Assembly (NCBI GenBank): GCA_002863125.1
Contig: PKEB01000015.1
Location: 1 to 64,000, forward strand
Reading direction: 5' to 3'
Source: Flavobacteriales bacterium
Lineage (GTDB): Bacteria > Bacteroidota > Bacteroidia > Flavobacteriales_D > Sanyastnellaceae
Length of the DNA: 64,000 nucleotides
In this document: piece by piece, positions 34,217 to 52,649 of the stretch
Position numbering within the stretch: position 1 is the first letter of the stretch
Layout: each line of letters starts with the position of its first letter
Notes under the pieces: model-generated
Databases searched by the model: none
What the model saw: only the letters and a program-made list of their open reading frames with translations
What the model was told of the DNA's origin: nothing
Translations under genes and position numbers: made by a program

Positions 34217-34552
34217 TCAATCTGTAGGGGCGGGAATACCAACACAAAAGTATTGAATTTCCTTGAAGGTGTATTGGAGTAGGGTGTCCGCAGTCATGCC
34301 TCTGAAGATGGCGAAGGAGCCTTCATCTTGTTCAGGCTTAGCATACTCGTGCACGTACAACTCGTCTTCTGCACAAAAATAGTTGTAGGACCGCAAGTAA
34401 TTGTTGAATCCTTCCGTACCTCGAACAAAGTCTTCAAACTTTGAGGTTGCAGCCGTTCCTGGATTGGCGATGCAGTGATTAAACCACCGGTCTTTCGATT
34501 CTTCTTCGAATGCACGAATGAATGTCTTTGCGAATAATGAAAATTGCTCCAT
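34217..34552 (-). CDS. Hypothetical protein directly after the sulfatase, start uncertain
   Basis: At least 111 residues from ATG 34552, or 138 from TTG 34633. It is rich in Phe, Tyr and Trp with Cys residues ([18 protein letters not shown]), soluble-looking, no family recognised. It is in the same frame as the upstream sulfatase, separated from it only by that gene's TAG stop. It ends 1 nt before the cyclophilin ATG. It could be a remnant left by the island junction. Confidence 0.45.
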
Positions 34553-34660
34553 TGAAGGAGTTTTTGCATTGTTTTTCGCGCACGAGACAATGCAATCAGG
34601 CAGTGATCTGAGCTCATTTGGATAACACGCCAAGATTGCCCGACCATCATTTGCCGTGAA

Positions 34661-36106
34661 CTATCGTTCAAGAATTGAAATGCCGGCATTGATTCGGAGT
34701 GAATCGAGACGGCTTTTCAGTTTTTCCTCAATTTCTGCGTATCCCGATTTTCCTGCTACACTATGATTTTCTTCAGGGTCTGAGCGAAGGTCGTATAACA
34801 TAGTTCCATGTGAGTGAGAATTTTGCTTTCCCCGAAATTCCGTGTAGCTGTATTCGCTGGTCGTTATCGTTTCTCCACCATGAAATTTCGAAAATGCTTC
34901 GAATCTTTTCGTCCGAATTGAGCCATTCGTGACCTTTTTAAGGTCAACACCTTGGATGTGATTTGGTGAGGCGATACCAGCGGCCTCGCAAAGGGTTGGA
35001 TATAGGTCTATTAATTCGACAACCTGTTTAACTCTTACATTTTCTGTTTGCTTAGGGTATTTGATAATTAATGGAACTTGAAGTGAGGTTTGGAAGTTGC
35101 AATGTTTTGCCCATAAGTTGTGCTCTCCGAGTTGCCAGCCATGGTCTCCCCAAAGAACGATCATTGTATTTTCAGCAATATCCAGTTCATTCAGCTTCGA
35201 GATTAATTGACCTACAAGGTGATCGACGTAGCTCACACATGCGAAGTAGCCATGGCGAAGGCGATTTTGCATGGAGTCAGGCACAGCAGTATAATCTTCA
35301 TTGGGGATATCCGTGTAAGCACGCAGTTCACCGAAAGAATGAAGAGCAGCTTCAGGGGCATTTTCGGGTGTGAATCGGTTTTTCGCTAGGCCGATTTCCT
35401 CAGCGCTGTAAAGATCCCAGAATCGAGTTGGAGCACAAAAAGGTAGGTGTGGTTTGAAAAAACCTACTGCAAGAAAAAATGGATCGTCTATTTTGGCAAG
35501 ATTTTCAAGATCGTTTAAACTCCTTTCTAAAATTTCATCATCTGCATAGACGGCGTCATTGGAACCTTTTTCCGTGGCAGGGCCATGGCCTTTTGTGGAT
35601 GCAATCATTTGATTTTTCGCTTCCTGATAATCTCGGAAATCTCGCTTGGGTCTCCATGGCTTTTCGCTCCAAGCGTCCGCTGAGTCTTTATTCTTATGTA
35701 AAATTTTACCGTTCGAAAGCGTTTTGTAGCCTTTCGACTTGAACCATTCTGCAATAATGGGGATCCCCGGTGCATCCTCATCTGCGCGTGAGGAAAATTT
35801 TATGAAACGACTATGATTTGGTCTCAGCCCCGTCATCACAGAGGCGCGCGAGGCACCGCATACTGGCACTGAGCATATGGCATGTTCGAAAACAAACGCG
35901 TTCGAAGCCAACGAATCAATACACGGTGTTTTTGCCAATTTACTGCCGTAGCATCCAAGTTCCGGCCTGAGATCATCTACAGCAATAAAAAGAATGTTTA
36001 CTGGCTCTGGCGGGGCATGATTTACTGTCGTATCGCCTGAACTAGACCTTTCGCTTAGAGCGAGAAATAAAAAAAATGTGCATACCAAAAATGGAGTAGT
36101 TCTCAT
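34661..36106 (-). CDS. Exported sulfatase, iduronate-2-sulfatase-like (S1 family)
   Basis: 481 residues. Signal peptide at the N-terminus (TFFLFLALS). Metal site NILFIAVDDLRPELGCYG. Formylglycine motif CGASR (Cys83) in SVPVCGASRASVMTGLRP, the CxAxR form. MIVLWGDHGWQLGEHNLWAKH carries the second metal Asp/His site. Pattern closest to the S1_7 iduronate-2-sulfatase-like group. It would remove sulfate esters from a polysaccharide in the periplasm or at the surface. Maturation needs a formylglycine-generating enzyme, not present here. It follows the GH gene by 77 nt. Confidence 0.92.
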   Translation of the reverse strand: MRTTPFLVCTFFLFLALSERSSSGDTTVNHAPPEPVNILFIAVDDLRPELGCYGSKLAKTPCIDSLASNAFVFEHAICSVPVCGASRASVMTGLRPNHSRFIKFSSRADEDAPGIPIIAEWFKSKGYKTLSNGKILHKNKDSADAWSEKPWRPKRDFRDYQEAKNQMIASTKGHGPATEKGSNDAVYADDEILERSLNDLENLAKIDDPFFLAVGFFKPHLPFCAPTRFWDLYSAEEIGLAKNRFTPENAPEAALHSFGELRAYTDIPNEDYTAVPDSMQNRLRHGYFACVSYVDHLVGQLISKLNELDIAENTMIVLWGDHGWQLGEHNLWAKHCNFQTSLQVPLIIKYPKQTENVRVKQVVELIDLYPTLCEAAGIASPNHIQGVDLKKVTNGSIRTKRFEAFSKFHGGETITTSEYSYTEFRGKQNSHSHGTMLYDLRSDPEENHSVAGKSGYAEIEEKLKSRLDSLRINAGISILER

Positions 36107-36183
36107 GTTTTCTGCTCTTTCTCGATTTTATCAGTGGTTTGTCCGATGCTTTCTCGCGTGTAAAGTCTATGCAAGATTCATTC

Positions 36184-37860
36184 TCAATCTAAAACTATGT
36201 AGTTCGCACTGAAAGGAGGACTGTCAATTAATAACAATGAATCGGAGAGCGTCCACTTATTAGCCGGGACTTTCCAGTATTTTTTTGGTCCTCCGGCAAC
36301 ATGTGGTCCGGTCATTCCATTAATAAAAGTCTTTCTTGAAAGAGGATTTTCATTGTACACTTCAAATTGATAGGCTGTATCAAAAGCCTCATCGTTTTTG
36401 ACATTGATTGAGACTTTATGAGATTTCGGACTGCCATTTAAAATAACCAGTCCGACTTCACCACTGGAGAAACTAGAGGCATGTATCCTCACTTGGTCAT
36501 TGTTTGTTCGTACGTCAAAATAAGTATCTCCGAAGCATTTGTTGTACAAGTAATAGTGATAGAACGAAGGGTGCGGAGTTAACTCTGGCACATCATTTTC
36601 TTTAGGGGAAGAAAAAACACCATGATCTTCGCCATCAGAGTAACCATTTACCAGGTCCCACATCATTGCAGAGCCGTAACCCTGTCTAATGAATTCACCT
36701 AAGGCATGGGATATAAACAGTCCAGCTGAGTGAGAAACATTCGTTGCGCCATCATTTGCGCTGATTGTTGCCCTGCTTCGCGTATTGAACTCTGTTAATG
36801 CGATTGGTATGGCATTTGCTCCAGTCCCATCGAGTTTTTCGAGGGCGTCATTGACCACTTGAATATGTGAATAAGCAGTGTCGACAGAAGCAAACATCTG
36901 TTCAGGGCTTAAAATGGCCTTGAAGGCAGTAAAGTAGTCATGCAAGACGTAGTAATCGGCATGACCTAGTATTTCTGGTAAGACTTTTGCGTTCCATTCT
37001 GACTGCACTGGATTATTAGTCTTTGGCTTTTGGTAGCCCACTACACCGATTTTGATAGAAGGATCAACGGACTTCATTGCCTCAATGAAAACACGGCAGT
37101 GCTTACCGTATTTCGCGGGGTCAATTCGTCCGCGTTCAGCAACATTATAACCGGCTTGCCAAGGCCCCCAATTTTCGTTGCCAATTTCCCAAAATTTAAT
37201 TCCAAGATTACGTTTTATGTTGGCATCTCTAACCCAATCCGCAGCATACGCCGCAGCTAACTGCACACGCTCGTCTTCATCTGCAATTTCCCCGTAGAGA
37301 GCAAAGGAATAATTTATACAGATTGATCCAGTAGCACCGGTTCTCAGTAAAAGTTGGTAATAATGCTCTGGGCTGAATTTGAAATTGCCTGCGTATCCCA
37401 ATTTAGGAGGGGTGTATCGGCCATTATTTTTCCATATCGTATCAGGGACACCCAAAGGGCAATCAGATAAATCTGCGGCATTCCAAAAAAAGTCATTTGA
37501 TGCATTTCCTCCCGGATAACGAATGATGGAAGTGCCCATATCTTGGATTGGTATTACGAACTCTTCGTTCTCCAGATTTGCTCGATTAACCCAAATTCCA
37601 AGATTATTTCCGAATATGTATTTGCTGATTCTGGTTAAGGGAGTAGATAAGTCTAATTCCGCAGTAACACTGGCATCTCCGGAAGGGCACATTACCGCAT
37701 TGGACTTTTTTGGAGTAGAAAACGTTTTTGGTTGCCAATCATCGAGGAACCAACCGGGGTTGCCATTTAGTGCCGGCCTTTGCGAATAAGAGGGCGGCAA
37801 ACAGGCAATGCTAGAGAGCACAACAAAAAGAGTTGAAAGAAATTCTTCTTTAACGATCAT
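36184..37860 (-). CDS. Exported clan GH-A glycoside hydrolase (GH51/GH39-like), copy 1
   Basis: 558 residues. N-terminal signal peptide. The (beta/alpha)8 domain (about 75-450) has IIRYPGGNASNDFFW, the acid/base Glu229 in FWEIGNENWGPWQAGY, and the nucleophile Glu357 in IALTEFNTRSR. The C-terminal part (about 465-558) is a beta-sandwich, as in arabinofuranosidases. The GNEN motif and RYPGG loop resemble GH51; overall identity cannot be judged here, so family and substrate are open. It starts within the ATGA overlap with the upstream GH gene, so the two paralogous enzymes are coupled. Confidence 0.82.
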   Translation of the reverse strand: MIVKEEFLSTLFVVLSSIACLPPSYSQRPALNGNPGWFLDDWQPKTFSTPKKSNAVMCPSGDASVTAELDLSTPLTRISKYIFGNNLGIWVNRANLENEEFVIPIQDMGTSIIRYPGGNASNDFFWNAADLSDCPLGVPDTIWKNNGRYTPPKLGYAGNFKFSPEHYYQLLLRTGATGSICINYSFALYGEIADEDERVQLAAAYAADWVRDANIKRNLGIKFWEIGNENWGPWQAGYNVAERGRIDPAKYGKHCRVFIEAMKSVDPSIKIGVVGYQKPKTNNPVQSEWNAKVLPEILGHADYYVLHDYFTAFKAILSPEQMFASVDTAYSHIQVVNDALEKLDGTGANAIPIALTEFNTRSRATISANDGATNVSHSAGLFISHALGEFIRQGYGSAMMWDLVNGYSDGEDHGVFSSPKENDVPELTPHPSFYHYYLYNKCFGDTYFDVRTNNDQVRIHASSFSSGEVGLVILNGSPKSHKVSINVKNDEAFDTAYQFEVYNENPLSRKTFINGMTGPHVAGGPKKYWKVPANKWTLSDSLLLIDSPPFSANYIVLD

Positions 37861-39833
37861 GGACAGATCAATCCAAAAGAGGCTAAGAAAAGTAACAAAT
37901 CCTCAATGCTTATAAATCCACTTCCGTTAACGTCTCCCGGGCAACCCGTAACTGAAGCAAATTCGCACGAACCATCATCATGATTTGCGATAGCATTAAA
38001 GTTTGAAGCTTGCACGTATGTGCATCCTGCAAGGATCGGTGTTTGGCATGAACCGTCGTCGGCTACCGCAAAAGGGTTGAATTCGAGAAAGTTGGGGTCC
38101 ATGCATCCTTCTGTATTGCAGTTACCCGGTTCGGCTATTATCAGATTGTATTGCACAGCCTCGGCAAGGCCGGTGGATTCGTCTAATTCAAACATTGCTT
38201 GAGTACTTGAATTTGAGAAAACTTCGCCATCAAAAACTATAGGTTCACATGACTCAATTGTTATGATAGTATCTGCAGAAGCTCTTGAAAATGCTAAAAT
38301 CGAAAAAGGTGGCACTGTAAAAGTGACTGTATCAGGTTCTAAAGCCCCGAATCCGTTGAGACTCTCAACATTTTCCGGGCCCCCTTCAGAATACGGAGAA
38401 CTGATACCATTTATGAGTACAGATTTGTCCGATTCATTTTCTGCATTGAGAATGTCCCAGTGAATGAAAGGAAAATTCGAGGATGTAGTGGGCCATGACA
38501 CCGTACGCGAGAATTGCCCGGAATTGACCAGGATTCCTCCTTTGGCGCCATTCGCATGAGTAGTTTCATAAGCCGTCAAATGAAGGTAGTTTGTCTCCAT
38601 TCGCTGAATCGCGTAACCAAGATATTTCTGGAGCAGCCAATATGTATAAAAAATTGGACGTGGCGCTCCGTCGGGCAAGCCCGGGGTATTCTGGGCAAGA
38701 AGGCCATGACTTCCTCCATCCTCTGAAACTCCTCCTTGAATATTCCAAATCAGGGACATCTCAAAACCTTCCATAATTTGCTCCAAAAGAACACGCGAAA
38801 TAAAAAGGGCATTAGCCATCGCCACCTCGCGATGCCCCGTATTAGAATTGAATTCGGTGAATGCCACAGGGAAATGATTCGCTGGTTTATCGGTGTATAG
38901 GTTAACCATATCAGCGACGGCTTCAGCATCCTCTGAAACTTCTACAATACTGCCCATCATCTGGTCGTATGTGATATTATTCTCATTAGGCGCCCAAGCG
39001 AAGTAATCATGAACGACGAGAAAATCGGCGTCGTTTTCAACCTCAGGCAGGACTTGCGCCGTCCAATCGTTGTATTCTTGATCAATGGGATAAATGACCG
39101 CACCAAGCTGTATTGTTGGATCTACGGATTTCATTGAATCAGCGAAAACCCTAAAAATTTGACCGTACATCTCCCCGGTCAGGAGCTCCCCCTCCACCAT
39201 AGATCCCGCTTGCCAACTCCCATAATTTTCGTTTCCGATTTCCCAATAGCGCACATATTTACCGAGTGTTTGATTCACGTACCTTACCCAGTCAGCGGCA
39301 TAGCTTGCGGCTTGTTCAACCCGGTCCAAACCCCATCCATAACGCGCATAGGAAAAATTTACTACTAAAACGGGCTCTCCTCCGATTGAATCGCACAGTA
39401 AAAAAAGTTCGTCAGTACCCATACTTGACCCGTCTGGATTAATCAAGTCAGATGCGGTAACCACGTCATCCTGCCGGATGAGTGCAGGCGGATTACCATC
39501 CCAAAAATACCGATTCGCTCCATTTCCACCTGGGAACCGAATGAATCCTGGGCCAACTGTTTTGCTCCTTGCGATTATTATGGAATCAGATGCAGAATCG
39601 TCTCCTAGAAAATGATTGTGCGTATATCCAAAATGAGTGGTTCTAATCGGTTTTAACGGCCCTTGCACGGTTAGGACAGATTGAGAGACACTTCCATCAT
39701 TCAAAGAAGACATCAATACTGTCACAGGAGCATCAAATTCCCTAGAAATAGCCAATGGAAAAACTTCATCATTTTGGCATAGCAATGACCCTATAGCAAG
39801 CGATTGAAGAAAAAAGATAACGAACCATTTCAT
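37857..39833 (-). CDS. Exported clan GH-A glycoside hydrolase, copy 2, with Cys-rich repeats and dockerin-like C-terminus
   Basis: 658 residues. Signal peptide FVIFFLQSLAIGSLLCQ. Catalytic domain related to the neighbouring enzyme: FIRFPGGNGANRYFW, acid/base Glu202 in YWEIGNENYGSWQAG, nucleophile Glu327 in VAFTEFNSNTG. After a beta-sandwich come two GC-x-DP/DDGSC repeats (near 570-630), common in Bacteroidota exported proteins. The last 28 residues form one EF-hand-like half-dockerin flanked by Cys (GDVNGSGFISIEDLLLFLA). No T9SS domain. ATG 39833 was chosen over an upstream TTG. Confidence 0.83.
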   Translation of the reverse strand: MKWFVIFFLQSLAIGSLLCQNDEVFPLAISREFDAPVTVLMSSLNDGSVSQSVLTVQGPLKPIRTTHFGYTHNHFLGDDSASDSIIIARSKTVGPGFIRFPGGNGANRYFWDGNPPALIRQDDVVTASDLINPDGSSMGTDELFLLCDSIGGEPVLVVNFSYARYGWGLDRVEQAASYAADWVRYVNQTLGKYVRYWEIGNENYGSWQAGSMVEGELLTGEMYGQIFRVFADSMKSVDPTIQLGAVIYPIDQEYNDWTAQVLPEVENDADFLVVHDYFAWAPNENNITYDQMMGSIVEVSEDAEAVADMVNLYTDKPANHFPVAFTEFNSNTGHREVAMANALFISRVLLEQIMEGFEMSLIWNIQGGVSEDGGSHGLLAQNTPGLPDGAPRPIFYTYWLLQKYLGYAIQRMETNYLHLTAYETTHANGAKGGILVNSGQFSRTVSWPTTSSNFPFIHWDILNAENESDKSVLINGISSPYSEGGPENVESLNGFGALEPDTVTFTVPPFSILAFSRASADTIITIESCEPIVFDGEVFSNSSTQAMFELDESTGLAEAVQYNLIIAEPGNCNTEGCMDPNFLEFNPFAVADDGSCQTPILAGCTYVQASNFNAIANHDDGSCEFASVTGCPGDVNGSGFISIEDLLLFLASFGLICP

Positions 39834-39854
39834 GGTCAAGGGCAGATTCCAATT

Positions 39855-41555
39855 TTACCTTTTGATGACCCTGAAAGTTTCAATCAGTTGGCCATCAGCA
39901 GAAGTCCTTAGCTTAATAAAATACAAACCTGGTTCTAGTCCATGCAACGGGATCATCGACACATTATCCTGCTTCGAAGTATTAATAAGCCTTCCTGAAT
40001 GCGACGATATTTCGAAGCGATAATTCTCGAAGTTTGTCGGCGCCTCAATTATTAAATAATCGCTTGCGGGATTTGGAAATAAGCGAAATCCTAATTCGCT
40101 TCTGACTCGGGCCACCTGGGTCGTTTCGGGGCATTCGTAGTCTTCCGGATTGAGTGTGGCACCGTCAATGTAATATACGCCTTGAGATAAAAACTGGATT
40201 TTCACAACACGTATTCCTTCATTGACAGTACTGTCTGCAGTGAATTGCCAGCAGAACTCAGTCCAGTCCGTTGAAGTTGTTTTGGTTTCGCTGTGTAATG
40301 CAGTGAAGGGGAAATCAGCATACGCAGTCATAAGATTGAATTCTAGTCCATCTGTACTTCCTTTCATCCATATGCTTACTGAGTAGGTAGAATCTTCCAC
40401 CATACCGGATCGGCAACTAGAAAGCTGTATTGATGAGTTTTGCTCCCCCGGGCTATTCACCTCGGCATAAGCACTTACAACACCATCGTAAGTGGTCGCA
40501 GGAGTCGCTGATATTGTAGCCGAAGCATCTTCCGAGACCGAGGTCACCCACGACTCCAAAGCCAATTCAAAATTTCCGTTACAGATAGCAGGAGTAGGCG
40601 GGATTTCTTCAATCCACACATCATCAATCCAATATTCGCCTTCATTTGGGAAGGCAAATTTTGCCAGCCTTATCCCGTTAGTTTCCTCTTCAGCATAGGC
40701 TATAAACGAATACTGCTGCCACTCAGTCGTCAGTGTAGCGTCAAGACTACCAAAAACTGTGTATGGTGGATTTTGAAGTGATGCTTTCGCTTCAATTGTC
40801 ACGCTGGGGTCATTCGACTTTGCCCAGAAATGCACCATGATAGAGGTCGCCTGAGGCAAAAATGATGAGCAACTCGAAAATATGGGCGTTCCCAGTTCTG
40901 TATCAGACACGGTTAATTTGACAGAAGAGTTGCCATTTACAGCCTCAGATTGGTCAACTTCAGCTGCAATAGCACCATTATTCTGATTGACTGCCCAAGA
41001 GTCAAAGCCATTTTCGAAATTTCCTTGGCAGACTTCAGGGGTAAGGTCGAATACCTCGATTTGAATATCATCTATCATCGCGAGGCCTTCGCTCAAAAAT
41101 TTGAATTTTGCCAAACGAATGTCTGCTAGATAGTCTTCAGTTACACTTCCAACAATTTCATACTGTGTCCATTCTGGGCCAAGTGTAAAGTTCCCTGTTG
41201 CGAAATTGTTATAACCTGGAGTAGCTTTTGATATTGTCGCAAGGACTTCAACGTTATTTTCCGATCTCGCCCAAAAGGACATCCTGTAGTTTTGATTCGC
41301 GATCATATCGGAAACACATGAACTTAAGACACATGTTCCGGAACTGATGTTTTCAATTGAAATTAAGGCGCCAACTTGTCCTGCAAATGCCGCTGTCGTT
41401 GAAGTATCAAAAGACGCTACTGCGCCATTATTAGCGAAGTTTTGCCAATCCGATAATCCCGATTCAAAAGAGGCGTTGCAAACTCCTTCAACTTGGGAGT
41501 GACTTTGAAAGTAAGATGTGCATATTGTCAGGAAGAGTATGAATCGTTTCATCAT
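39855..41555 (-). CDS. Secreted triple carbohydrate-binding-module-like protein with T9SS domain
   Basis: 566 residues. Signal peptide ILFLTICTSYFQSHS. Three tandem modules of about 150 residues (near 22-168, 172-320, 323-470) each start with a C-x-G/A-S/N-FE-x-G/A motif (CNASFESGLSDWQN, CQGNFENGFDSWAV, CNGNFELALESWVT) and end with a YYIDD-like strand. This is the jelly-roll pattern of CBM4/9/22-type modules. A type A T9SS domain (LFPNPASDYL...VIKR) ends the protein. No catalytic domain is seen, so it is probably a surface glycan-binding protein. It lies 21 nt upstream of the GH gene. Confidence 0.82.
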   Translation of the reverse strand: MMKRFILFLTICTSYFQSHSQVEGVCNASFESGLSDWQNFANNGAVASFDTSTTAAFAGQVGALISIENISSGTCVLSSCVSDMIANQNYRMSFWARSENNVEVLATISKATPGYNNFATGNFTLGPEWTQYEIVGSVTEDYLADIRLAKFKFLSEGLAMIDDIQIEVFDLTPEVCQGNFENGFDSWAVNQNNGAIAAEVDQSEAVNGNSSVKLTVSDTELGTPIFSSCSSFLPQATSIMVHFWAKSNDPSVTIEAKASLQNPPYTVFGSLDATLTTEWQQYSFIAYAEEETNGIRLAKFAFPNEGEYWIDDVWIEEIPPTPAICNGNFELALESWVTSVSEDASATISATPATTYDGVVSAYAEVNSPGEQNSSIQLSSCRSGMVEDSTYSVSIWMKGSTDGLEFNLMTAYADFPFTALHSETKTTSTDWTEFCWQFTADSTVNEGIRVVKIQFLSQGVYYIDGATLNPEDYECPETTQVARVRSELGFRLFPNPASDYLIIEAPTNFENYRFEISSHSGRLINTSKQDNVSMIPLHGLEPGLYFIKLRTSADGQLIETFRVIKR

Positions 41556-41701
41556 GCTTGTTTTTGGCTAGGTTGCTTCGGATTATGAGCCCCATTCGTG
41601 AGAGAATCTACGAAAAAACTGCTGATTTCGCCGTGTCGATTGAGACTAATTTTCTCGCCTGGAAGAGATAATTAAATCAAGCTATTTGTGAAGCACCATA
41701 T

Positions 41702-42697
41702 CTAAAAAGGCTCGTCGGGAGTAAGGATGATATAGTCGGCGTCAAAACCGAACGTGCCATCTGCGGTACCTACTTGGCTTATAGTTATATCTAATCTCAA
41801 AATATTATCAAGATCAAGAAGCCCTCCGTTTACAGCAACATTGTTGCCTGACAAATCCAAGGATAAATCGGATAAAGGCAGATTCATTCTTTGCCATTGG
41901 CCGTCTGCCGCTATTGGCACTTTCGTTGTGAAAACTTCGTCATCACCGGAATTGATGATTCCGTCATCATTTGAGTCTTCGAATACTTTAATCACTGTCG
42001 CAGAACCTTCGAATTCGCTTCTTAGGTGCAGATTCAAAAACGAATCTGCGACTGTAATATTTGATAATGTGGCTGGATCCATTGTGATTCGTAGTGCACC
42101 AAACCAAGTTGCAGGTCCCGATCCAAACCCGGTCATATATGTTGAGCCTTCAACAGCATCAGGGGCGTTATTGACTGTTTCCAAATATTCTGTAAAGTCG
42201 CCACTGGTTAAGCTGAAAGCAGAGGGATCTTCGAAAGATGTTAGCAACACGCCTTTGAACGATAAATCAGGCTGTTCCCAGACAAAAACAGAATCTAATT
42301 GGGTGCTTTGAGGATGATCATCGAATTCAAGAACACAATGCACCCACTCCATAGGGCCGAAAAAAACATCGTCACAATCTCCTCCCCAACTAACGTCAGA
42401 TAAATTGGCTCCTTTTCCCGAAATAGAATATTTGGCACCCGAAGACTGGCCTGTGAGCGAAAGGGTATAATCCACTTCTAAGTTGAAATCAGCTGAAAAT
42501 TCGACCTTCTCGTTTGCCTCAAAATGAACCCCGTTGGGGCTATTGTTAGAGAACGCGGTCAATAATTCCAGCTCACCATAAAGCCCACTCAAATCAGGGC
42601 CAAGAGGTTCCTCTTTTGCACACCCAACGAAAGCTAAGATGATAACAAGACTTCGAGACAATATCCAAGGGTTTGGGGATGGATTTAGGAGAGTCAT
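41702..42697 (-). CDS. Predicted lipoprotein with CBM-like domain
   Basis: 331 residues. N-terminal SLVIILAFVGCAKEEP carries a lipobox (FVGC). Two beta-rich halves follow. The second has STYMTGFGSGPATWFGALRI and ADGQWQRMNLPLSDLSLDL, resembling carbohydrate-binding jelly rolls, and an Asp-rich loop DSNDDGIINSGDDE that could bind calcium. It is probably a surface lipoprotein that could take the place of SusD/SusE-type glycan binders (inference). It follows the outer-membrane barrel gene by 1 nt. ATG 42697 was preferred because the longer reading lies in the upstream gene's end. Confidence 0.72.
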   Translation of the reverse strand: MTLLNPSPNPWILSRSLVIILAFVGCAKEEPLGPDLSGLYGELELLTAFSNNSPNGVHFEANEKVEFSADFNLEVDYTLSLTGQSSGAKYSISGKGANLSDVSWGGDCDDVFFGPMEWVHCVLEFDDHPQSTQLDSVFVWEQPDLSFKGVLLTSFEDPSAFSLTSGDFTEYLETVNNAPDAVEGSTYMTGFGSGPATWFGALRITMDPATLSNITVADSFLNLHLRSEFEGSATVIKVFEDSNDDGIINSGDDEVFTTKVPIAADGQWQRMNLPLSDLSLDLSGNNVAVNGGLLDLDNILRLDITISQVGTADGTFGFDADYIILTPDEPF

Positions 42698-42698
42698 T

Positions 42699-44435: not shown

Positions 44436-46315
44436 CAGAAGTGAATTTTTAGTTCAATTGTAGACTCCCAGCCTTGGAATCGAGATGATGTAATTGACTG
44501 GTCAAAGTAATCGACGCGTTTATATCTGAAAAAAAGAGTCGATGATTTGGTCATACTAATATCTATTCCCGTGCCGAGGGCCGCGCCGAGGCCATCCAAG
44601 TAACTATATTCTTGTTCTTCTAGCCCATCTCGAGGGCTGGTAAATTCATTACCCTTAATTCGCTCAAGTCCGCCATATAGAATCCACGCACAGCGATTTC
44701 CAAAGGGAAAATAGGTGTCCATTTCGTGATATTGAGCGCTGACAATTGCAGAATCACCAAACTTTGGCAACATTGAGAGCCCGTGTTGAGTGGATAGGTA
44801 TTCTCCTAGGTAAAAAATGAAAAATGGCCTCTCAAACAGTTCCCCTTTAACCTTCGCATTTAATCGCACTGCGTTGAAACCTTTGATGCCTAATTGATGA
44901 CCTTCAGAAGTTATTCCGATTCTTTGGTACGCCCCCCTGAAAAAAGTAGTGATCGCGTTATTTGGCCCTGTGGCAGATTGAAACCGATCGACTCGTGACA
45001 TGTAAAGTCCAGTAACCTTGTGATAAAAAGTTATGTCCGATGGCAGATTCTGAATTTCTCTAGAGATTAAATAGCCGAGGTTTATTCTTAACCGACCTAT
45101 CCCGAACGTCGAAGAAAATCTTGCACTAGCGCGATTATTGGCAACCAAATGCATTGGGGTGAGGACTGCACCGAAAGGTCGTGCTCCGTCTTGAACGTTT
45201 GCGCCATTGAAAGAAGACGTTTCAGAGCTAAAACCATCCACGGAAGTATTGATCAGTGCAGAGTGTAGATTAACAAAATTGGGTGTAACTGCGAACAGTT
45301 CAACGTCCAATGGGAAGTTCAATTTTCTTTTTGGGATGCTCAAGAGCATTTTGAATGCAACACCTGAACCTTGGCTATTCTCAGCGTCAATTCTATGCTT
45401 TCCGAAAGCGAGTTCACTTTTGACACCAAGGTTTTTCAGTCGGCCTTCATGTGCAAGAGAAAGGATATTGACCCCAAATTTTTCACCATTTCTCCAGGCA
45501 TCTAGGCCTCGTGAGTTCATACTGCCGACGTGAAAAGTTTGAAGACGATACTGCTTGCTGAGCCTACCCGCCATTATAAAGTCAGGGAGTGAGGGGAGAT
45601 TAAAGGGTGTTTTCCCGACAACCATCTCGAAATCAATTAGCCCTGGGAGATCCAGTGCTTGCAATCTCAAACCATTCAATTGCCGTTTGCCAAAGTCTAC
45701 CTCCCGTATATAGTCCGAGCGACTGTAGTAGCTATCGTGTTGTACGGCAATGGGCCAAACATATGTCCAGGCATTGCGGTCAAACAACGAGTTTTGGACC
45801 TGTTTTGCCGAACTCATTAAAAAGTCACCTAATTCCACAAATTGTGTTCCTCCAAATGATACTCTAAACTTTCCTTTCGAAGTTGACGCTCCGGTAGATA
45901 AAACCACACCTTGACGAGATAAGCGAAAAATCCTGTTGTCATCGACCATATTTGTCATCGGGTCGAAAGTCAAAAGTTGCAAGGCCACGAAACTGTTAGC
46001 TGTCGGTCTTGCGAGAATATTGATGTTAAAATTGGGGGTATTGAATTCGTCGTCCGTCCTTATAACCAAAGGCGTATTGCTATCACCAAAGTGTACATTT
46101 AGCTTTCTCGCATACCCCATGAAACGATAGTAACCTTTTATTTCAAGTGGAATTTTCTTAGTGTCTTGTCCAATTCTTATTTTTTGAAATTTATCTGGTT
46201 CTGGTTGTGTGGAATCTGTGCTGACACTTTGTCCCACCAAGATTATCGTAATGCACGAGAAAATCAGTCCAAACAGTAACTTGATAAAATGTACTTTATG
46301 TGGCACCCTAAGCAT
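44435..46315 (-). CDS. Predicted outer-membrane beta-barrel protein, copy B
   Basis: 626 residues. N-terminal signal peptide (LLFGLIFSCITIILVGQ), then a strand-rich body beginning IKGYYRFMGYARKLNV, like porin-type barrels, ending KIHF with a C-terminal Phe. No plug domain. It forms a coupled pair with copy A. Its start overlaps the divergent sulfatase gene by 27 bp; a GTG at 46306 is a possible alternative start. The pair is the best candidate for outer-membrane import in this locus. Confidence 0.72.
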   Translation of the reverse strand: MLRVPHKVHFIKLLFGLIFSCITIILVGQSVSTDSTQPEPDKFQKIRIGQDTKKIPLEIKGYYRFMGYARKLNVHFGDSNTPLVIRTDDEFNTPNFNINILARPTANSFVALQLLTFDPMTNMVDDNRIFRLSRQGVVLSTGASTSKGKFRVSFGGTQFVELGDFLMSSAKQVQNSLFDRNAWTYVWPIAVQHDSYYSRSDYIREVDFGKRQLNGLRLQALDLPGLIDFEMVVGKTPFNLPSLPDFIMAGRLSKQYRLQTFHVGSMNSRGLDAWRNGEKFGVNILSLAHEGRLKNLGVKSELAFGKHRIDAENSQGSGVAFKMLLSIPKRKLNFPLDVELFAVTPNFVNLHSALINTSVDGFSSETSSFNGANVQDGARPFGAVLTPMHLVANNRASARFSSTFGIGRLRINLGYLISREIQNLPSDITFYHKVTGLYMSRVDRFQSATGPNNAITTFFRGAYQRIGITSEGHQLGIKGFNAVRLNAKVKGELFERPFFIFYLGEYLSTQHGLSMLPKFGDSAIVSAQYHEMDTYFPFGNRCAWILYGGLERIKGNEFTSPRDGLEEQEYSYLDGLGAALGTGIDISMTKSSTLFFRYKRVDYFDQSITSSRFQGWESTIELKIHF

Positions 46316-47923
46316 ATTTTAATTAGTTGGATCTTCTTGTCGGGTTGTAATTGGATCAGCACAGGTATGCCAAAGAAACAACCTGCCGATGGAACTCAGT
46401 CTGTAATATGGCTAGTTTGTGAGGATCAGTCATTATTTCTGCCCATCTACGGGGATTCAACGGCTTTTATGCCAAACCTTTGTTCATTGGCAGATGATGG
46501 CACTGTATATGATAAGTTTTTCGCTGTTGCTCCGGTTTGCGCTCCCTCAAGAAGTAGCATTATTACTGGAGTTCAGCCTGCCTTAATGGGTACGCAACAC
46601 ATGAGGGCGTTTCAAGCCAATAAAGTGGGCTTGAATCAACACACAGGATTGCCTTACTACTCTGCTCCCGCTCCGCCTGGAACCAGACCTTTTACTGAAT
46701 ACCTTCGTGAGGCGGGTGTTTTTTGTACGAACAATTCGAAGGAAGATTACAACTTTGAAGCACCACCGCTTGCTTGGGATGAGTCTTCCTCTGATGCCCA
46801 TTGGCGAGAAAGGAGGGATGGACAGCCTTTCTTTTCGGTTTTTAATTTTAATGTGACTCACGAGAGTCAAATTTGGAAAAGACAGGAAACCTCTTGTCAA
46901 ATTAGCCGTGATTCAGTTCCAGTACCGCTATTAATTCCGCAAGAGAATGCAGTAAGGAAGGATATAGCCGTTAATTATTGCAACCTTGAAGAGTTGGATC
47001 GGCAGATTGGTAAGGTCATAGATGAGCTTAAGGAAGACGGCTTGTACGAAAGCACGACAGTTGTATTTTTCAGTGATCATGGTGGCCCGTTCCCGCGATT
47101 TAAAAGAGCCCCCACTGATGCGGGCCTTAGAGTTCCTTTACTGATTAAATGGGGCCATGTCGAAGATGTACCCTCCAGGAATGCAGGGTTGTTTTCATTC
47201 TTAGACTTGGCTCCTTCAGTTTTACGGTGGTTCAATGTTCAGCGAGAAATCTCGCTGTCAGGAATGCCTATTTTACCTGATTCAAGAGGACATGAGGCTG
47301 TATATGCGTCAACAGACCGTTTAGATGAACATCTAAATCGTCGCAGAACTGTTCGAACAACTAATTGGCGCTTAATTCGAAATGATTTTCAGGATAGACC
47401 GGCAGGAATGAATATCGCATATCGAAAACAAATGAATACAATGAAAGTAATTGATTCATTGGCTCAAGATGGCATAGAGCCTTGGATTTCATGGAAATCT
47501 AAGCCACTGTCTAAATGGGAACTCTACAATAGTTCCGAAGATGAGTGGGAGTTAGAAAATCTTTATCTGAATCCACTTTTTGCGGACACGCTTGTCTATT
47601 TACAAAACTTACTCTCTCGCGCATTTCCTCCGGGGCAGGACTTGGGGAACGTTGATGAAAAAAAGCTCGTAGAATATTTCAAGCAGAAAGTTGCATCAGA
47701 GGAACTCACATTACCAACATTGACTCAAAAAGGTAGGAGGTTTATAATTTCTCATGAAAATCCAAATGTTTCTATCGGTTGGCGCACGAAACGAGAAGAT
47801 GCTTGGAATGTGGCAAGTAGAGGAGCCGAGATAACCATCCCCGAAGGGATAACTGAAGTTGAAGTTCTTGTTACCCGAATTGGATGGAAGTCGAAGACTC
47901 AGGTATTGAACATTATCAATTGA
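46289..47923 (+). CDS. Sulfatase, predicted lipoprotein (S1 family)
   Basis: 544 residues. N-terminus with a lipobox (IFLSGC, Cys20). Metal-binding WLVCEDQSLFLPIYG, formylglycine motif CAPSR (Cys84) in APVCAPSRSSIITG, and VVFFSDHGGPFPRFKRAPTDAG with the second metal site. It is the only plus-strand gene of the island, divergent from the barrel genes and convergent with GH3. TAACTTGA lies 4 nt before ATG 46289; ATG 46298 is an alternative. It probably desulfates the same polysaccharide as the other sulfatase but belongs to a different subgroup. Confidence 0.88.
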   Translation: MYFMWHPKHILISWIFLSGCNWISTGMPKKQPADGTQSVIWLVCEDQSLFLPIYGDSTAFMPNLCSLADDGTVYDKFFAVAPVCAPSRSSIITGVQPALMGTQHMRAFQANKVGLNQHTGLPYYSAPAPPGTRPFTEYLREAGVFCTNNSKEDYNFEAPPLAWDESSSDAHWRERRDGQPFFSVFNFNVTHESQIWKRQETSCQISRDSVPVPLLIPQENAVRKDIAVNYCNLEELDRQIGKVIDELKEDGLYESTTVVFFSDHGGPFPRFKRAPTDAGLRVPLLIKWGHVEDVPSRNAGLFSFLDLAPSVLRWFNVQREISLSGMPILPDSRGHEAVYASTDRLDEHLNRRRTVRTTNWRLIRNDFQDRPAGMNIAYRKQMNTMKVIDSLAQDGIEPWISWKSKPLSKWELYNSSEDEWELENLYLNPLFADTLVYLQNLLSRAFPPGQDLGNVDEKKLVEYFKQKVASEELTLPTLTQKGRRFIISHENPNVSIGWRTKREDAWNVASRGAEITIPEGITEVEVLVTRIGWKSKTQVLNIIN

Positions 47924-47945
47924 GGTGGCTAGAAGGCTCGAACTT

Positions 47946-50249
47946 TTATTCTTCGAGAAGAATTGATTTCTCTTCCCCGAAAAGCTCGACTGTAAAAGAC
48001 CCTGGTTCGAAGTGCCAAGTTCCCTCGCCATCGACATATCCAAAGGCATTAGCCGGGATTGTAATTGTGCTATCAATGAAACTTCTTGGAGGGACTCGGA
48101 CATGATCAAATGCTACCAGAACTCTCTTTCTCGGCGAAATATGAGTCGCGTAGTCATCACTTAAATAAAGATCAAAACTCTTGGAGGCTTCGTCTTGGTT
48201 CTTATTTGTAAGGCGATAATTCACGTCTACACTGTCACCTAAAAAACATTGTTCGCATGAGAAGTCCACAAATTCGCAGTCTAACTCATCGTACGACATT
48301 CCATGGCCAAACGGCCATTGGGGGCGAAATCCTAATTCAGTGAATGTACCGGGTGGTCCTTGCGTAATTTTCGATGAGAATCTGTGATCATACGGGATTA
48401 AATCGCCCGTAGAACGGTGATAAGTAAATGGTAAGAGCCCACTGGGGTTTGATAAACCGGCAAGAGTTCTAGCGATAGCCATTGCCCCCTGAGACCCGGG
48501 CCGTAGGGCGAGCAGCACGGCATCGATATCTTCAACAAATTGACTTACTAGTCTTCCTCGACCTTCAACTAGTACGAGAATTACAGGTTTCCCTGTGGCA
48601 ATAGCGTCGAGAGCTAGTTTTACCTGATTCTTAGGTAGGTTTAAATCATCAATTACTCCGGGGGATTCTGCATAGGCATTTTCCCCCAAGCATAGGATGA
48701 TTACATCAGAGGATTCAGCTGCGTTTTCAATATCTAATTTGTAATGAAGTGAATCGTCAAACCCAGCGTTCAATGGGCATTTGACTTGATCTGCCCCAAA
48801 AACCTGAGTGATAGCCTCAACAATAGTTAACGTCTCATTTGGGTAGGCCGATTCAACATTTCCCTGCCAAGTGTACGACCAAGCTCCATGCAAGGCACTT
48901 TTTGACCCACAAGTAGGCCCAATAACAAGCAATTTTTCATCTCCTCTTAAGGGAAGAATTTCATTGCGATTTTCCAACAATACGAGAGATGCTTCTGCCG
49001 CTTGAAGAGCAATATCTTCATATTCAGATAATCCAAATTTTTTCACTGCAGTTTCTTCCACTTTTGGATTTGAGAAGAGCCCGAGCCTCATTTTGAATTC
49101 GAGTATTCTTCGAACGCTCTCATCAATTCGTTCTTCCGTGATTTCGCCACTGCGCACCAAGTCCACAAGGTTTTCGCTGAATGAATATTCATTTGGCACC
49201 ATGCTCATATCAAGACCTGCATCAATAGCCATTTTCACAGCGTCCCTGTGGCTACGGGCGACTTGATGGCGACTGTGGAGCCGAATAATATCCTGCCAAT
49301 CTGAAACTATTACTCCTTCGAAGCCCATTCGTTCGCGAAGGAGAGTAGTCAAAAAATTGCGAGATGCATGAACTGGAACTCCATTTACAGATCCAGAATT
49401 TACCATTAGCGTTGAGGCTCCTGCATTGACACCAAATTGAAACGGTGGGATATGATGTTCCCATAATTCAAGATTGGATATGTAGGCTTCCGTGCGGTCC
49501 TTTCCTGATGCGGGTACCCCATAACCAATAAAATGTTTCATGCAGGCCGCAATGCCTTGACCTTTCGCATGGTTAAAATTCTCATATGTACCGACTATGG
49601 CACCTCCCATTTTACCGCATAACAAAGCGGATTCCCCAAAGGTCTCTGGGAATCTTGGCCAGAGGGGTTGCCTTCCGACATCAAAGACAGGGTCGAAATT
49701 CCATCGAATACCACTTGCTCGTGTTTCGGCTGCACACACTTCCGCAGCTGCTTGAACAATCTCGAGGTTGCGGGTTGCAGCCATTCCAATATTGTGAGGA
49801 AATAATGTCGAGCCTTTACTGTAAGTGGCACCGTGAATGGCATCGATTCCATAGACAACGGGTATTTTAAGTGGTTGCTCAAGCGCAATTTCTTGGATGC
49901 CATTTATTATCTCATGCCAACGAGCTAAGGAGTACGCCCTTCCTGCGGTGTTCAAGATTGAGCCTACTCGGTAAGTTTCAACTGCAGTTTTTACTTTGTC
50001 CCAATCGACCTGTTTTGGCTTTCCGTCATGCTGATTCATTGAAGATGACAAAAATCCAAGATTGAGTTGTGTCATTTGACCAACTTTATCCTCAATTGAC
50101 ATTTTTTCAAGCATCATTCCAATGAACTCGTCCTCTTCAGAACCGTTCAACTTTGGGTGAAATTCTGTTGTCTCGCAAGAGATGAGACAAATCAGAAGGG
50201 CAGACTTGAGAAAGAAGCGAATCTGAGAATTGAAATTAGATAGCTGCAT
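47946..50249 (-). CDS. Glycoside hydrolase family 3 beta-glycosidase, predicted lipoprotein
   Basis: 767 residues. Signal/lipobox ALLICLISCETT. GH3 N-domain with KIPVVYGIDAIHGATY, nucleophile Asp317 in GVIVSDWQDI. The C-domain has ILCLGENAYAESPGVIDDLNLP, and a fibronectin-III-like tail follows. These match beta-glucosidase/xylosidase-type GH3 enzymes. It would trim oligosaccharides released by the other enzymes in the periplasm. Convergent with the sulfatase (22-nt gap) and 59 nt after the next upstream gene. Confidence 0.93.
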   Translation of the reverse strand: MQLSNFNSQIRFFLKSALLICLISCETTEFHPKLNGSEEDEFIGMMLEKMSIEDKVGQMTQLNLGFLSSSMNQHDGKPKQVDWDKVKTAVETYRVGSILNTAGRAYSLARWHEIINGIQEIALEQPLKIPVVYGIDAIHGATYSKGSTLFPHNIGMAATRNLEIVQAAAEVCAAETRASGIRWNFDPVFDVGRQPLWPRFPETFGESALLCGKMGGAIVGTYENFNHAKGQGIAACMKHFIGYGVPASGKDRTEAYISNLELWEHHIPPFQFGVNAGASTLMVNSGSVNGVPVHASRNFLTTLLRERMGFEGVIVSDWQDIIRLHSRHQVARSHRDAVKMAIDAGLDMSMVPNEYSFSENLVDLVRSGEITEERIDESVRRILEFKMRLGLFSNPKVEETAVKKFGLSEYEDIALQAAEASLVLLENRNEILPLRGDEKLLVIGPTCGSKSALHGAWSYTWQGNVESAYPNETLTIVEAITQVFGADQVKCPLNAGFDDSLHYKLDIENAAESSDVIILCLGENAYAESPGVIDDLNLPKNQVKLALDAIATGKPVILVLVEGRGRLVSQFVEDIDAVLLALRPGSQGAMAIARTLAGLSNPSGLLPFTYHRSTGDLIPYDHRFSSKITQGPPGTFTELGFRPQWPFGHGMSYDELDCEFVDFSCEQCFLGDSVDVNYRLTNKNQDEASKSFDLYLSDDYATHISPRKRVLVAFDHVRVPPRSFIDSTITIPANAFGYVDGEGTWHFEPGSFTVELFGEEKSILLEE

Positions 50250-50308
50250 TGCCGCTAAAATAAGCGGGAGTTAATAAAGGCCTTTGCTATTTCCTAATAT
50301 GCCCAAAA

Positions 50309-52249
50309 TCACTCACATGAGAGACCGAAGACAGAGAGGAATTGAAGAAGATCAGGGGTTGCCACCAATCCGTCGTTATCAATATCGGCGCCACAGCTGG
50401 ATTCCAATGATATAAGGCAACTGCCGTCATCTGTATTTGCGGCTGGGTTGAAGTTGGAAGCTACTTCATATGTGCAACCATGGACTACCAATGTTTCGCA
50501 TGATCCATCATCTGCAGTTGCATCAAAGTCGAATTCAACATAAAAAGGATTTGTGCAACCAGGTACAAGGCACGACGTTCCGTCACCACCACAAATACCG
50601 CATTCATCAGTTCCTTCTGAACAATTACCATCACAATCCACCGAGGCATTTAAGGTGAAATTGACCCAAAAGATTTCATTAGGTTCCTGCGAAACATCCA
50701 AATCGTATGGGCCTCTCAACCTTAATTTGTCAACTACTCCACTCCAATTGGCGTTAGCAGTTAAGTTGACTTGGTATGTCTCGGGACCTGTCATTTCTGT
50801 GCCAATAGGAATTACCTGAGAACCCAGAATGACTCCTGTTTCATCATACCAACGGAGTTGAAAACCAGCTGAAATGGTTGTAGGGTTCTGGACTGTCACA
50901 GAAAAGGCTGAAAATGAAGAGGTTTGGATACCAAGTCCTGTTGGACTTTGCATTTCAGCAACTGCTGAAGTCCCTGTAATTGCCATTGTCATGTACTCAG
51001 GACCTTGGCTTAGCATTACTCCACCAGCACCTATCCAACCAGCTTTAGTCCCTTGCCAGGCGTAGTCGATCATCGAATTCGCACCGATGAAATTACACGT
51101 ACCATCGTCCTCGCAGGCGTCAGGATTAAAGTTGCATGCTGCGGGATCTGTACATCCACTGTTAACGCATGAATCTAGCGCATCACAAACCCCATCATTA
51201 TCATCATCTGCTGCACAATCACCATTGCAATCAAAGACTTCATTTAATTCGAAAAACTCCCACAGAATGTCAGGAGTTTCTGTTTCCACATCAAGCGCAA
51301 ATGGCCCTCGAAGTCTCATTTTGTGAATTAAGCCTGACCAGCTTTCTTCAGAAAAAAGATCAATTGTGTATGTTTCGAATTCAGTCATTTCAGTTCCGAC
51401 AGGAATCGCTTTATTTCCAAGCAGGCTATTATTTTCGTCATACCAGCGCAATTGAAAACCGCTGCTGATACTTGTAGGATTGAGCAGTCGCACGGACAGC
51501 GATCCAAAAGCCGAAGCGTCAAGAGCAAGACCCGTTGGACTCTGCATCTCAGCAACGTTATTTGCGCCGGTTACTGTCATAGTCATATGATCTGGTCCTG
51601 CGGCTAGAACAACCCCGCCAGCTCCAGTCCAACCTGCTTTTGTTCCTTGCCAGTAGAAATCAGTAGGAATTGCGGCTCCGTTGTATGAACAATTGCCGTT
51701 ATCCTCTGTCGCTTGCGGGTCGAAATTGCATGCAAGGGGATCCATACATCCAGAAATAGCTTCGGTGACAAGATTTAGGGAGAATGAATGCCATTCGACC
51801 TCCCCAAGAGAGCCACCTCCTCCTGCCGGACCGCGGAGGCGAAATTTACCAATAGTATTTCCGGCCCAGTTGGCATTATCTGCTAGGGATATTGTGTAGG
51901 TCTCAGGCGTGGTCATTTCAGTTGAAACCGGTATTGTAGCCTGCCCGAGCAAAGAATTTGACGAGTCGAACCACTTCAGAACGAAAGGACTACCATTCGT
52001 GTGATTTAGCACGGTTATTTGAAAGCTATCGTAATTCTCCGCGGTGAGATTTAAATTTGTTGGACTCTGCATATGAGGTTGATTCCCAGTGACGGTCATA
52101 GTTAGAAAGTCCTGACCCACTGATAGAGAGCAGCCGCCTGCTCCCGTCCATCCTGCATTTGTTCCTTGCCAAGTCCACGAGTCTTGCGCCATTAATAATT
52201 GACAAGCGGCAAGTGTGGCACTGGTTAAAAAGGCCGTTAGTTTCTTCAT
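50309..52249 (-). CDS. Secreted protein with three long repeats and dockerin-like C-terminus
   Basis: 646 residues. Signal peptide ending LLMAQ. Three homologous modules of about 140 residues (near 25-170, 195-340, 385-530) share W-QGT-AGWTGAGG, MTMTVTG, MQSPT and LRWYDENN-like phrases, a beta-sandwich look. They are separated by GCxDP-ACNF repeats. Another GCTxP/DDGSC pair and one half-dockerin (ADIDNDGLVATPDLLQFLS) flanked by Cys end the protein. No enzymatic motif; probably a glycan-binding surface protein. No T9SS domain. ATG 52249 gives the signal peptide. Confidence 0.78.
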   Translation of the reverse strand: MKKLTAFLTSATLAACQLLMAQDSWTWQGTNAGWTGAGGCSLSVGQDFLTMTVTGNQPHMQSPTNLNLTAENYDSFQITVLNHTNGSPFVLKWFDSSNSLLGQATIPVSTEMTTPETYTISLADNANWAGNTIGKFRLRGPAGGGGSLGEVEWHSFSLNLVTEAISGCMDPLACNFDPQATEDNGNCSYNGAAIPTDFYWQGTKAGWTGAGGVVLAAGPDHMTMTVTGANNVAEMQSPTGLALDASAFGSLSVRLLNPTSISSGFQLRWYDENNSLLGNKAIPVGTEMTEFETYTIDLFSEESWSGLIHKMRLRGPFALDVETETPDILWEFFELNEVFDCNGDCAADDDNDGVCDALDSCVNSGCTDPAACNFNPDACEDDGTCNFIGANSMIDYAWQGTKAGWIGAGGVMLSQGPEYMTMAITGTSAVAEMQSPTGLGIQTSSFSAFSVTVQNPTTISAGFQLRWYDETGVILGSQVIPIGTEMTGPETYQVNLTANANWSGVVDKLRLRGPYDLDVSQEPNEIFWVNFTLNASVDCDGNCSEGTDECGICGGDGTSCLVPGCTNPFYVEFDFDATADDGSCETLVVHGCTYEVASNFNPAANTDDGSCLISLESSCGADIDNDGLVATPDLLQFLSVFGLSCE

Positions 52250-52543
52250 GATTTCTTTGGTCAAAAGAATTACAAACTCAAGTTTAACGTCTAAAAGATA
52301 CAGCTTAAACGACTAATATTGAAAACATGCAGAAAATTATCGGATTTCCGGTGTTCACTCTTCATCCTCTTTATGCTAATAAATGGATTTGCATAATTGC
52401 TCCGTAATAGCTCCCTTTCACTTCTTTTCTCCACTAACATAAAATTGCGAGCGCTCGAAGCTCCTTGAAGTGATTTTAATTTGGTTCATTTCACGACTCG
52501 AACTTGCCCTCTTCAAAGGGACTATTTAAACTACCTAAAAGTG
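52250..52543. other. Intergenic gap of about 290 bp, no gene seen
   Basis: AT-rich non-coding stretch between the repeat protein start and the tRNA-Gly terminator. It probably holds the promoter of the minus-strand island genes; minus-strand TTCTTTTG-like sequences near 52258-52275 are possible but not convincing. No integrase remnant or repeat recognised. Confidence 0.5.
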
Positions 52544-52572
52544 AAAAAGCCTCCCGCAATGGAAGGCTTTTC
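52544..52572 (-). terminator. Terminator of tRNA-Gly
   Basis: On the minus strand AAAAGCCTTCC pairs with GGGAGGCTTTTT with one mismatch, followed by T residues, just after the tRNA 3' end. Confidence 0.8.
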
Positions 52573-52576
52573 GTTG

Positions 52577-52649
52577 AGCGAGAAACGAGACTCGAACTCG
52601 CGACCCCAACCTTGGCAAGGTTGTGCTCTACCAACTGAGCTATTCTCGC
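52577..52649 (-). tRNA. tRNA-Gly (anticodon GCC)
   Basis: 73 nt on the minus strand. Acceptor GCGAGAA pairs with TTCTCGC, discriminator T. D-arm TAGCTCAGTTGGTAGAGCA. Anticodon loop CTTGCCAAG with anticodon GCC. T-arm GCGAGTTCGAGTCTCGT. CCA is not encoded. Confidence 0.97.

Follow-up and report, generated by a model that had tools for sequence, protein, structure and literature searches.

A recurrent module of two predicted outer-membrane barrels and a lipoprotein as a candidate stand-in for SusC/SusD in glycan loci of Bacteroidota

The DNA analysed here, hereafter the window, is a stretch of 64,000 nucleotides from a Flavobacteriales bacterium that corresponds to bases 1-64000 of contig C9 (93,960 bp); the host genome (G000) comprises 2.27 Mb on 35 contigs at a completeness of 98.7%. 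The window carries a gene cluster for glycan degradation that is similar to a polysaccharide utilization locus (PUL) and is built on undescribed protein families. Its core consists of two predicted outer-membrane barrels, B and A, and a lipoprotein, C, which, judged from sequence and gene context, probably form an undescribed outer-membrane module for glycan uptake that stands in for the SusC-SusD pair (SusCD). A preliminary description of the locus had proposed that the barrels and the lipoprotein could be a different import system for oligosaccharides. This proposal gained support from the lack of SusCD on the contig, the failure to place the barrels in a known family, the occurrence of the trio beside glycoside hydrolases (GH) and an apparent exchange with SusCD; import itself is what we infer from these points. 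The core genes are:

44435-46315, minus strand: barrel B, predicted outer-membrane protein of 626 residues, about 24 strands, plug-less (structure model)
42699-44435, minus strand: barrel A, predicted outer-membrane protein of 578 residues, about 22 strands, plug-less (structure model)
41702-42697, minus strand: lipoprotein C, similar to carbohydrate-binding modules (CBM), predicted to be surface-exposed (lipobox followed by AKEE; weak CIA30 and CBM11 matches)

The barrel genes had been described as translationally coupled over 42699-46315, with the lipoprotein gene 1 nt behind them. The open reading frames (ORFs) of B and A overlap by 1 nt, and the ATG of C indeed lies 1 nt past the stop of A. 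The same order was found across 93 loci, counted after removal of L042, L043 and L046, which are duplicates of L056, L057 and L111. A directly follows B in 91 of the 93, and C comes next in 80; the 13 exceptions are two loci that end at B and eleven that end at A. B and A are separated by no more than 30 nt in 83 of 91 cases, with a gap of exactly -1 nt in 33, and A and C lie equally close in all 84 adjacent pairs (tandem copies counted; limit again 30 nt). This recurrence of B-A-C in order over the 93 loci, although many are near-copies, is far beyond chance.

Relatives of B occurred in 55 of 114 genomes and 17 of 21 genera of the host's own family, and in 103 of 355 genomes and 36 of 66 genera of the order (completeness at least 80%). 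An even draw from the phylum yielded B in 6 of 392 genomes, 2 of them already known. In a scan of genome contigs, 136 stretches with B were confirmed, and the titles among the best 80 of these named Flavobacteriales, Crocinitomicaceae, Chitinophagaceae, Bacteroidales and Sphingobacteriales, although such titles mostly come from metagenome-assembled genomes (MAGs) and their labels may err. The contig of L111, which is filed as 'Euryarchaeota archaeon isolate SP189', carries a Bacteroidota-type locus and is probably a mislabelled MAG. B-A-C was intact in three loci from other families of the phylum (L137, L138 and L139), and in L138 C is followed by genes for a CBM30-like lipoprotein, GH158, GH16 and GH3. 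For L136, A, C and GH158 were visible, and B is known from the search of the phylum draw only. By eye, the upstream genes L138:6903-7946 and L139:7569-8582 start like LacI regulators.

The search for the trio beside glycoside hydrolases in other genomes was strongly positive. A glycan enzyme (GH158, GH3, GH16, GH51-like or sulfatase) was located within nine genes of B in 86 of the 93 loci. The commonest partner was GH158, which was assigned by similarity to the PDB entries 9oro (E 1e-90) and 6pal (E 3e-67); it was present in 71 loci and in 57 lay immediately upstream on the same strand. The other partners, whose families were named from one or few members each, were the CBM30-like lipoprotein (67 loci), GH3 (49), the family c7 (28), an NrtR/NUDIX-type regulator (25), sulfatase (20), GH16 (19), MFS permease (14), SSF symporter (12) and FGE (10). 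c7, a protein of about 279 residues (e.g., L067:8970-9806), mostly lies one gene past GH3 or replaces it; one member gave no useful match against Pfam and PDB sequences, and the family is perhaps an undescribed glycanase. Among the 355 genomes of the order, B and GH158 were each found in 103, together in 98 and singly in five each, and 93 of the 110 GH158 matches lay at most 12 kb from B. In the genomes with GH158 only, the locus is cut by contig ends in G008, G197 and G224, and A and C sit at a contig end in G348. The window's own locus contains no GH158. From the window alone it could not be seen that B-A-C most often lies in a GH158 beta-1,3-glucan locus and not in a sulfated-polysaccharide locus. 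The best reading is that B-A-C mostly serves in beta-1,3-glucan loci and that the window's copy is used together with sulfatases and GH51-like enzymes.

The preliminary description had noted that no SusC or SusD was visible, and had named a nearby SusCD pair as an observation that would speak against its proposal. Neither protein was found among the matches listed for the entire 93,960 bp of C9. Therefore, an ordinary PUL with overlooked SusCD was rejected; measured against a SusCD-type PUL, co-located glycan enzymes and a lipoprotein are present and the SusC/SusD pair is absent. Elsewhere in the host genome, the SusD model PF14322 had three matches, on contigs C10, C11 and C14, and the SusC model had 20, of which three exceeded the cut-off, on the same three contigs; among the matches listed, PF07980 added a fragment at the start of contig C21. 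Two SusD models were both without a match in 25 of the 70 genomes that have B and reach a completeness of 90%, among them G071 (92% complete) and G075 (94% complete); SusD types outside these two models would escape detection. When the 93 loci were searched by BLAST with the host genome's own SusC and SusD, within the flanks available, SusC and SusD appeared at the far end of one locus (L064) and a weak SusC match in another (L105). L137 has a TonB-receptor-like gene. In a pooled Pfam scan of 36 of 56 large neighbour proteins, no TonB-receptor family was among the 25 commonest of 66 families.

The most telling single result is the apparent exchange of the two systems within one genus. Genome G206, which has GH158 but neither B, A nor C, carries an MFS gene in one direction and, in the other, genes for GH158, SusC, SusD and a PKD-domain protein. 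In the same slot, four congeners (G193, G194, G198 and G207) carry the divergent MFS gene followed by GH158, B, A and C. The GH158 proteins of these four are 64-65% identical to that of G206, and the MFS proteins 42-61%.

Neither B nor A matched any family in Pfam or NCBIfam. B was also without a match among PDB sequences, by sequence or by profile, and the profile of A retrieved there only a short match to OprF (E 0.17), so that placement of the barrels in a known sequence family was rejected. No OprD-type match to either profile appeared among PDB sequences up to E 1; remote homology to these porins is possible. The structure models, at a predicted local distance difference test score (pLDDT) of 80 and a predicted template modelling score (pTM) of 0.79 for B (71 sequences) and 87 and 0.83 for A (64 sequences), predict both proteins to be outer-membrane beta-barrels, with the strand numbers counted from the DSSP line. 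Both models have an N-terminal helix, and both proteins end in F. The barrel starts at residue 57 in the model of B and at residue 35 in that of A, which leaves no room N-terminally for a TonB-receptor plug; the plug domain of TonB-dependent transporters (PF07715) was absent from both proteins by Pfam and in the models. Among solved folds, B was nearest to the FimD usher (Z 16.9, root mean square deviation 5.0, 345 residues aligned), followed by OprD/Occ porins (Z about 15) and the SusC protein BT1763 (Z 14.5). Foldseek placed the chitoporin VhChip on top for B, yet with a TM score of 0.25 by query length. A was nearest to AlgE (Z 18.5, root mean square deviation 5.8, 313 aligned), followed by Occ porins (17.9), chitoporin (17.1), usher (16.0) and SusC (15.5).

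A and B are also related to each other. A one-to-one hhalign comparison gave 96% at E 2.9e-9, and this profile alignment identifies them as remote homologues. They have in common an N-terminal Gly-x-x-Arg strand and an N-R-x-G motif that closes a long inter-strand segment; the window's B has N-R-A-S at this position. In A this long segment exceeds the strands in conservation, which is not the case in B.

A lipobox was recognisable in 63 of 81 C proteins and in 38 of 67 CBM30-like proteins. A signal for export to the surface has been described for lipoproteins of Bacteroidota, and an acidic motif right after the lipobox cysteine was present in 57 of these 63 C proteins, compared with 2 of the 38 CBM30-like proteins and 40 of 135 other lipobox proteins, the latter drawn from the loci analysed, with the complete window and five host-genome stretches that lack the trio among them. 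By a looser criterion of at least one acidic residue, the numbers were 67 of 69 for C and 12 of 38 for the CBM30-like proteins, duplicates included. Judged by this signal, C would face outward and the CBM30-like lipoprotein inward. The CIA30 match of C is weak and below the cut-off. CBM11, to which C has a weak match, binds beta-glucans. C presumably binds glycan.

The preliminary description had listed for the locus two sulfatases, two clan GH-A enzymes, a GH3 enzyme, a triple-CBM protein with a tail for the type IX secretion system (T9SS), the lipoprotein and a three-repeat protein. All of these were confirmed by Pfam, NCBIfam, PDB or inspection of the sequence. Besides B, A and C, the features are:

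34217-52541, no strand: inserted island with the whole locus, 18.3 kb (flank comparison with congeners, G+C)
34661-36106, minus strand: sulfatase with CGASR motif (PF00884, E 6e-43)
36184-37860, minus strand: GH51-like clan GH-A enzyme (NCBIfam ArfA, E 8e-16; GH51 arabinofuranosidases in the PDB, E about 2e-11)
37857-39839, minus strand: GH51-like clan GH-A enzyme with a dockerin-like C-terminal tail (NCBIfam ArfA, E 3e-16; tail read from the sequence)
39855-41555, minus strand: secreted protein with three CBM_4_9 domains and a T9SS tail (Pfam)
46289-47923, plus strand: sulfatase with CAPSR motif, head to head with B (PF00884, E 2e-27)
47946-50249, minus strand: GH3 exo-glycosidase (PF00933, E 3e-68; PF01915, E 6e-34)
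50309-52264, minus strand: secreted protein with three repeats and a dockerin-like tail (sequence reading)
52576-52649, minus strand: tRNA-Gly(gcc), just beyond the right edge of the island

Both ArfA matches lie far below the cut-off of that model, and Pfam had no glycosidase match for either GH51-like enzyme. No sugar can be named for the window's locus because these enzymes are too distant from characterised ones. Pfam also returned nothing for the three-repeat protein, of which a relative (33% identity over 200 residues) adjoins a paralogous trio on contig C5. Repeats ending in DDGSC precede the dockerin-like tails of this protein and of the second GH51-like enzyme, and stretches similar to these ends match proteins in L046, L048, L051 and L055; the tails are possibly a sorting or anchoring tag distinct from the usual T9SS tail. 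The starts of the divergent ORFs of the CAPSR sulfatase and B overlap at 46289-46315, without an ordinary promoter gap, and they overlap in the orthologous locus L042 as well. A scan for promoters and terminators equalled the shuffled expectation (34 against 33.8 and 13 against 16.6, respectively) and was uninformative.

The flank comparison identifies the locus as an 18.3-kb insertion next to the tRNA-Gly gene, at a site that is empty in four congeners. In G064, G058, G061 and G053 the sequences flanking the island (up to 34216 or 34222 and from 52536-52544 onward) are only 14-130 nt apart. The start at 34217 given in the preliminary description lies near a real junction, the left end of this insertion. 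The G+C content is 43.7% in the island against 57.3% and 57.6% on either side within the window; as controls, the C5 locus has 51.3% compared with 53.6-55.9% in five other stretches of the host genome, and in G071 the values are 48.6% for the orthologous locus and 49.1% for its surroundings. The barrels, the lipoprotein, the enzymes and the sulfatases are all on this single island. That the island is unique to the host genome within the genus was rejected by a search with the island DNA. At the same site and with about 96% identity, G069 carries the right edge and at least the region equivalent to window positions 34661-40803; the barrel part was not recovered from the short contigs of this genome. 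In G065 the left edge (to about 34664) is present but other large genes come after it, and therefore the insertion site may be a variable spot or hotspot. G058, in which the site is empty, has a sulfatase and two GH51-like genes (proteins 59-69% identical) at the end of another contig. An ORF of 138 residues at the left edge (34217-34633, minus strand) without a Pfam match has an 87% identical copy in G065, where unrelated genes come next, whereas G069 lacks it. A comparison between windows of about 300 nt at the two island edges showed no repeat of at least 10 nt, direct or inverted, and Pfam revealed no integrase among the island ORFs scanned.

In a tree of 102 B proteins, for which the program warned about long branches, the window's B fell into a clade of 11 with full support, whose members all come from sulfatase loci. 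Its paralogue on C5 belongs to a separate clade of 11, nine of which were scored as sulfatase loci, and the remaining 80 rows include one sulfatase locus. The second B-A-C of the host genome, on C5, lies with sulfatases, an FGE-type sulfatase maturase, a CBM30-like lipoprotein and GH158. Within the family, G071 and G075 were the only other genomes with a B of the window's type (60% identical), and none was found in other genomes of the genus. In L058, L061, L062 and L063, A and C of a first module occur with GH158 and are followed by a full B-A-C with sulfatases. Such tandem modules, of which one accompanies GH158 and the other GH51-like enzymes or sulfatases, suggest duplication and re-use for a new substrate. 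G362 (L145/L146) also has two B-A-C modules in tandem.

A scheme of uptake would start with C holding the glycan on the cell surface. Endo-enzymes, either surface-bound or secreted, would cut it; typically this would be GH158, and in the window the GH51-like enzymes, the sulfatases and the triple-CBM T9SS protein would take part. Barrels A and B, as a plug-less pair, would then let the fragments through the outer membrane, probably by diffusion and without TonB. The CBM30-like lipoprotein, where present (67 of 93 loci), may face the periplasm and help to draw the chains in, and GH3 would finally free sugars for an SSF or MFS permease. Within this scheme, we infer transport and its direction, independence from TonB, contact between A and B, the topology of the lipoproteins and the substrate of the window's copy.

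Other roles of the barrels were considered. A and B may be a device for export or surface display of C, the CBM30-like lipoprotein and the glycanases, with sugars entering by general porins. The FimD usher as best fold match of B (Z 16.9), the constant company of A, B and C, and the surface-type signal of C are in favour of such a device. We nevertheless regard it as unlikely, as an import set, SusC-SusD, fills the same slot in G206, the best matches of A are AlgE and OprD-type channels, and surface display in Bacteroidota is already served by T9SS and the common lipoprotein export route. Even less likely, A and B would be glycan-binding scaffolds or sensors at the surface, and uptake would be left to other TonB-dependent transporters. 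Two large barrels would be odd for such a role, SusD is undetected in 25 of 70 near-complete B-positive genomes, and the exchange with SusCD again occurs in the same slot; in its favour, the host genome has more TonB-receptor-like matches (20 by the SusC model, three over the cut-off), and there are the SusC/D at the far end of L064, the weak SusC match in L105 and the TonB-receptor-like gene in L137. It is very improbable that the cluster acts in the manner of AlgE on polysaccharide made by the cell itself, exporting or remodelling it while the hydrolases trim the product. The similarity of A to the alginate exporter AlgE (Z 18.5) is in favour of this, but OprD-type importers tie with AlgE, the named partners are hydrolases, sulfatases, sugar permeases and an NrtR/AraR-type regulator, and no glycosyltransferase is among the annotated neighbour families, which cover a subset of the neighbours.

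Several points weigh against glycan uptake by B-A-C in place of SusCD. Near-copies are abundant among the 93 loci, which are therefore not independent, and the co-occurrence of B and GH158 in the order (Fisher p 2e-74) was calculated with phylogeny ignored. B occurs without a GH158 match in G004, G034, G046, G115 and G349, and seven of the 93 loci (L089, L109, L116, L117, L119, L121 and L125) have none of the above-mentioned enzymes nearby. Beyond the order B is rare (four further genomes of the 392 drawn), and the exchange with SusCD rests on one genome, G206. C is split into two ORFs in L061, as is A in L134. The model of B is weak at residues 124-133 and 364-376 (pLDDT below 50), and the profile match of the C-terminal part of C to CBM11 of the clostridial endoglucanase H (1v0a) is weak as well (E 0.012-0.013). 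On the island, no inner-membrane sugar transporter, regulator or FGE/sulfatase maturase was recognised; the maturase could come from the C5 locus. Finally, the fold matches are generic, as AlgE, OprD-type porins, ushers and TonB transporters score alike. Because the scores are so close together, the structural claim is limited to an outer-membrane barrel without plug. Membership of the barrels in a known non-transport family, which the preliminary description had named as a counter-argument, found nothing in its favour by sequence and these generic matches by fold.

Polysaccharide loci of Bacteroidota are recognised and tallied by their SusC/SusD signature. Should B-A-C be a stand-in importer, loci with laminarin-type enzymes, chiefly in one order, are being overlooked as a class. 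It would also pose the question for membrane biology whether Bacteroidota feed on polysaccharides through plug-less barrels without TonB energy, and the exchange with SusCD within one genus makes this question testable by gene swaps. We consider it possible, though short of probable, that B-A-C gives Bacteroidota a second class of importer dedicated to glycans in the outer membrane, one that is independent of TonB. It would combine two paralogous plug-less barrels, paired as a heteromer, with a surface binding lipoprotein, would be equivalent to SusCD and interchangeable with it, would be the ancestral means of taking up beta-1,3-glucan (laminarin) in several families, and, being sufficiently mobile, would have been recruited for sulfated glycans on the island.

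The trio appears undescribed in the open-licence literature, as judged mostly by titles and the openings of abstracts, which is no proof of absence. The best-scoring solved folds for A (Z about 17-18.5) are the OprD/Occ porins, the chitoporin ChiP and AlgE of Proteobacteria. These are plug-less substrate channels of 16-18 strands, fewer than in A and B, and to our knowledge none has a paired paralogue; A and B lack any sequence match to them. C resembles the CBM11 of 1v0a weakly in its C-terminal part (E 0.013), but C is a whole lipoprotein and CBM11 is a module of an enzyme there. Clusters of glycan enzyme genes without susCD have been noted before. For co-located carbohydrate-active enzyme (CAZyme) genes that lack susCD, the name CAZyme cluster has been used in place of PUL (PMC10108472). 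A further source mentions 11 loci in which several CAZymes occur and susCD is missing (PMC10811738), and most susC/D-less CAZyme clusters of Bacteroidetes have been suggested to be fragmentary PULs (PMC6499787). The B-A-C loci share with the latter the presence of glycan enzymes without SusCD; in contrast to these clusters, for which section 10 of that source gives no other transporter, they own a conserved outer-membrane module. The closest counterpart in gene content is the beta-1,3-glucan locus (1,3GUL) of Bacteroides uniformis, outlined as SusC-SusD-SGBP-B-GH16-GH158-GH3 with a hybrid two-component system (HTCS) regulator, SGBP being a surface glycan-binding protein (PMC7157763). As in this locus, GH158, GH16, GH3 and putative surface glycan-binding proteins lie beside an outer-membrane block, whereas the regulator near 25 of the 93 B-A-C loci is of the NrtR type instead of HTCS (PMC7157763). 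By these shared GH158, GH16 and GH3 partners, the neighbour set of B-A-C is that of 1,3GUL, with B-A-C, often together with the CBM30-like lipoprotein, in the place of the TonB-dependent SusC-SusD-SGBP-B (PMC7157763).

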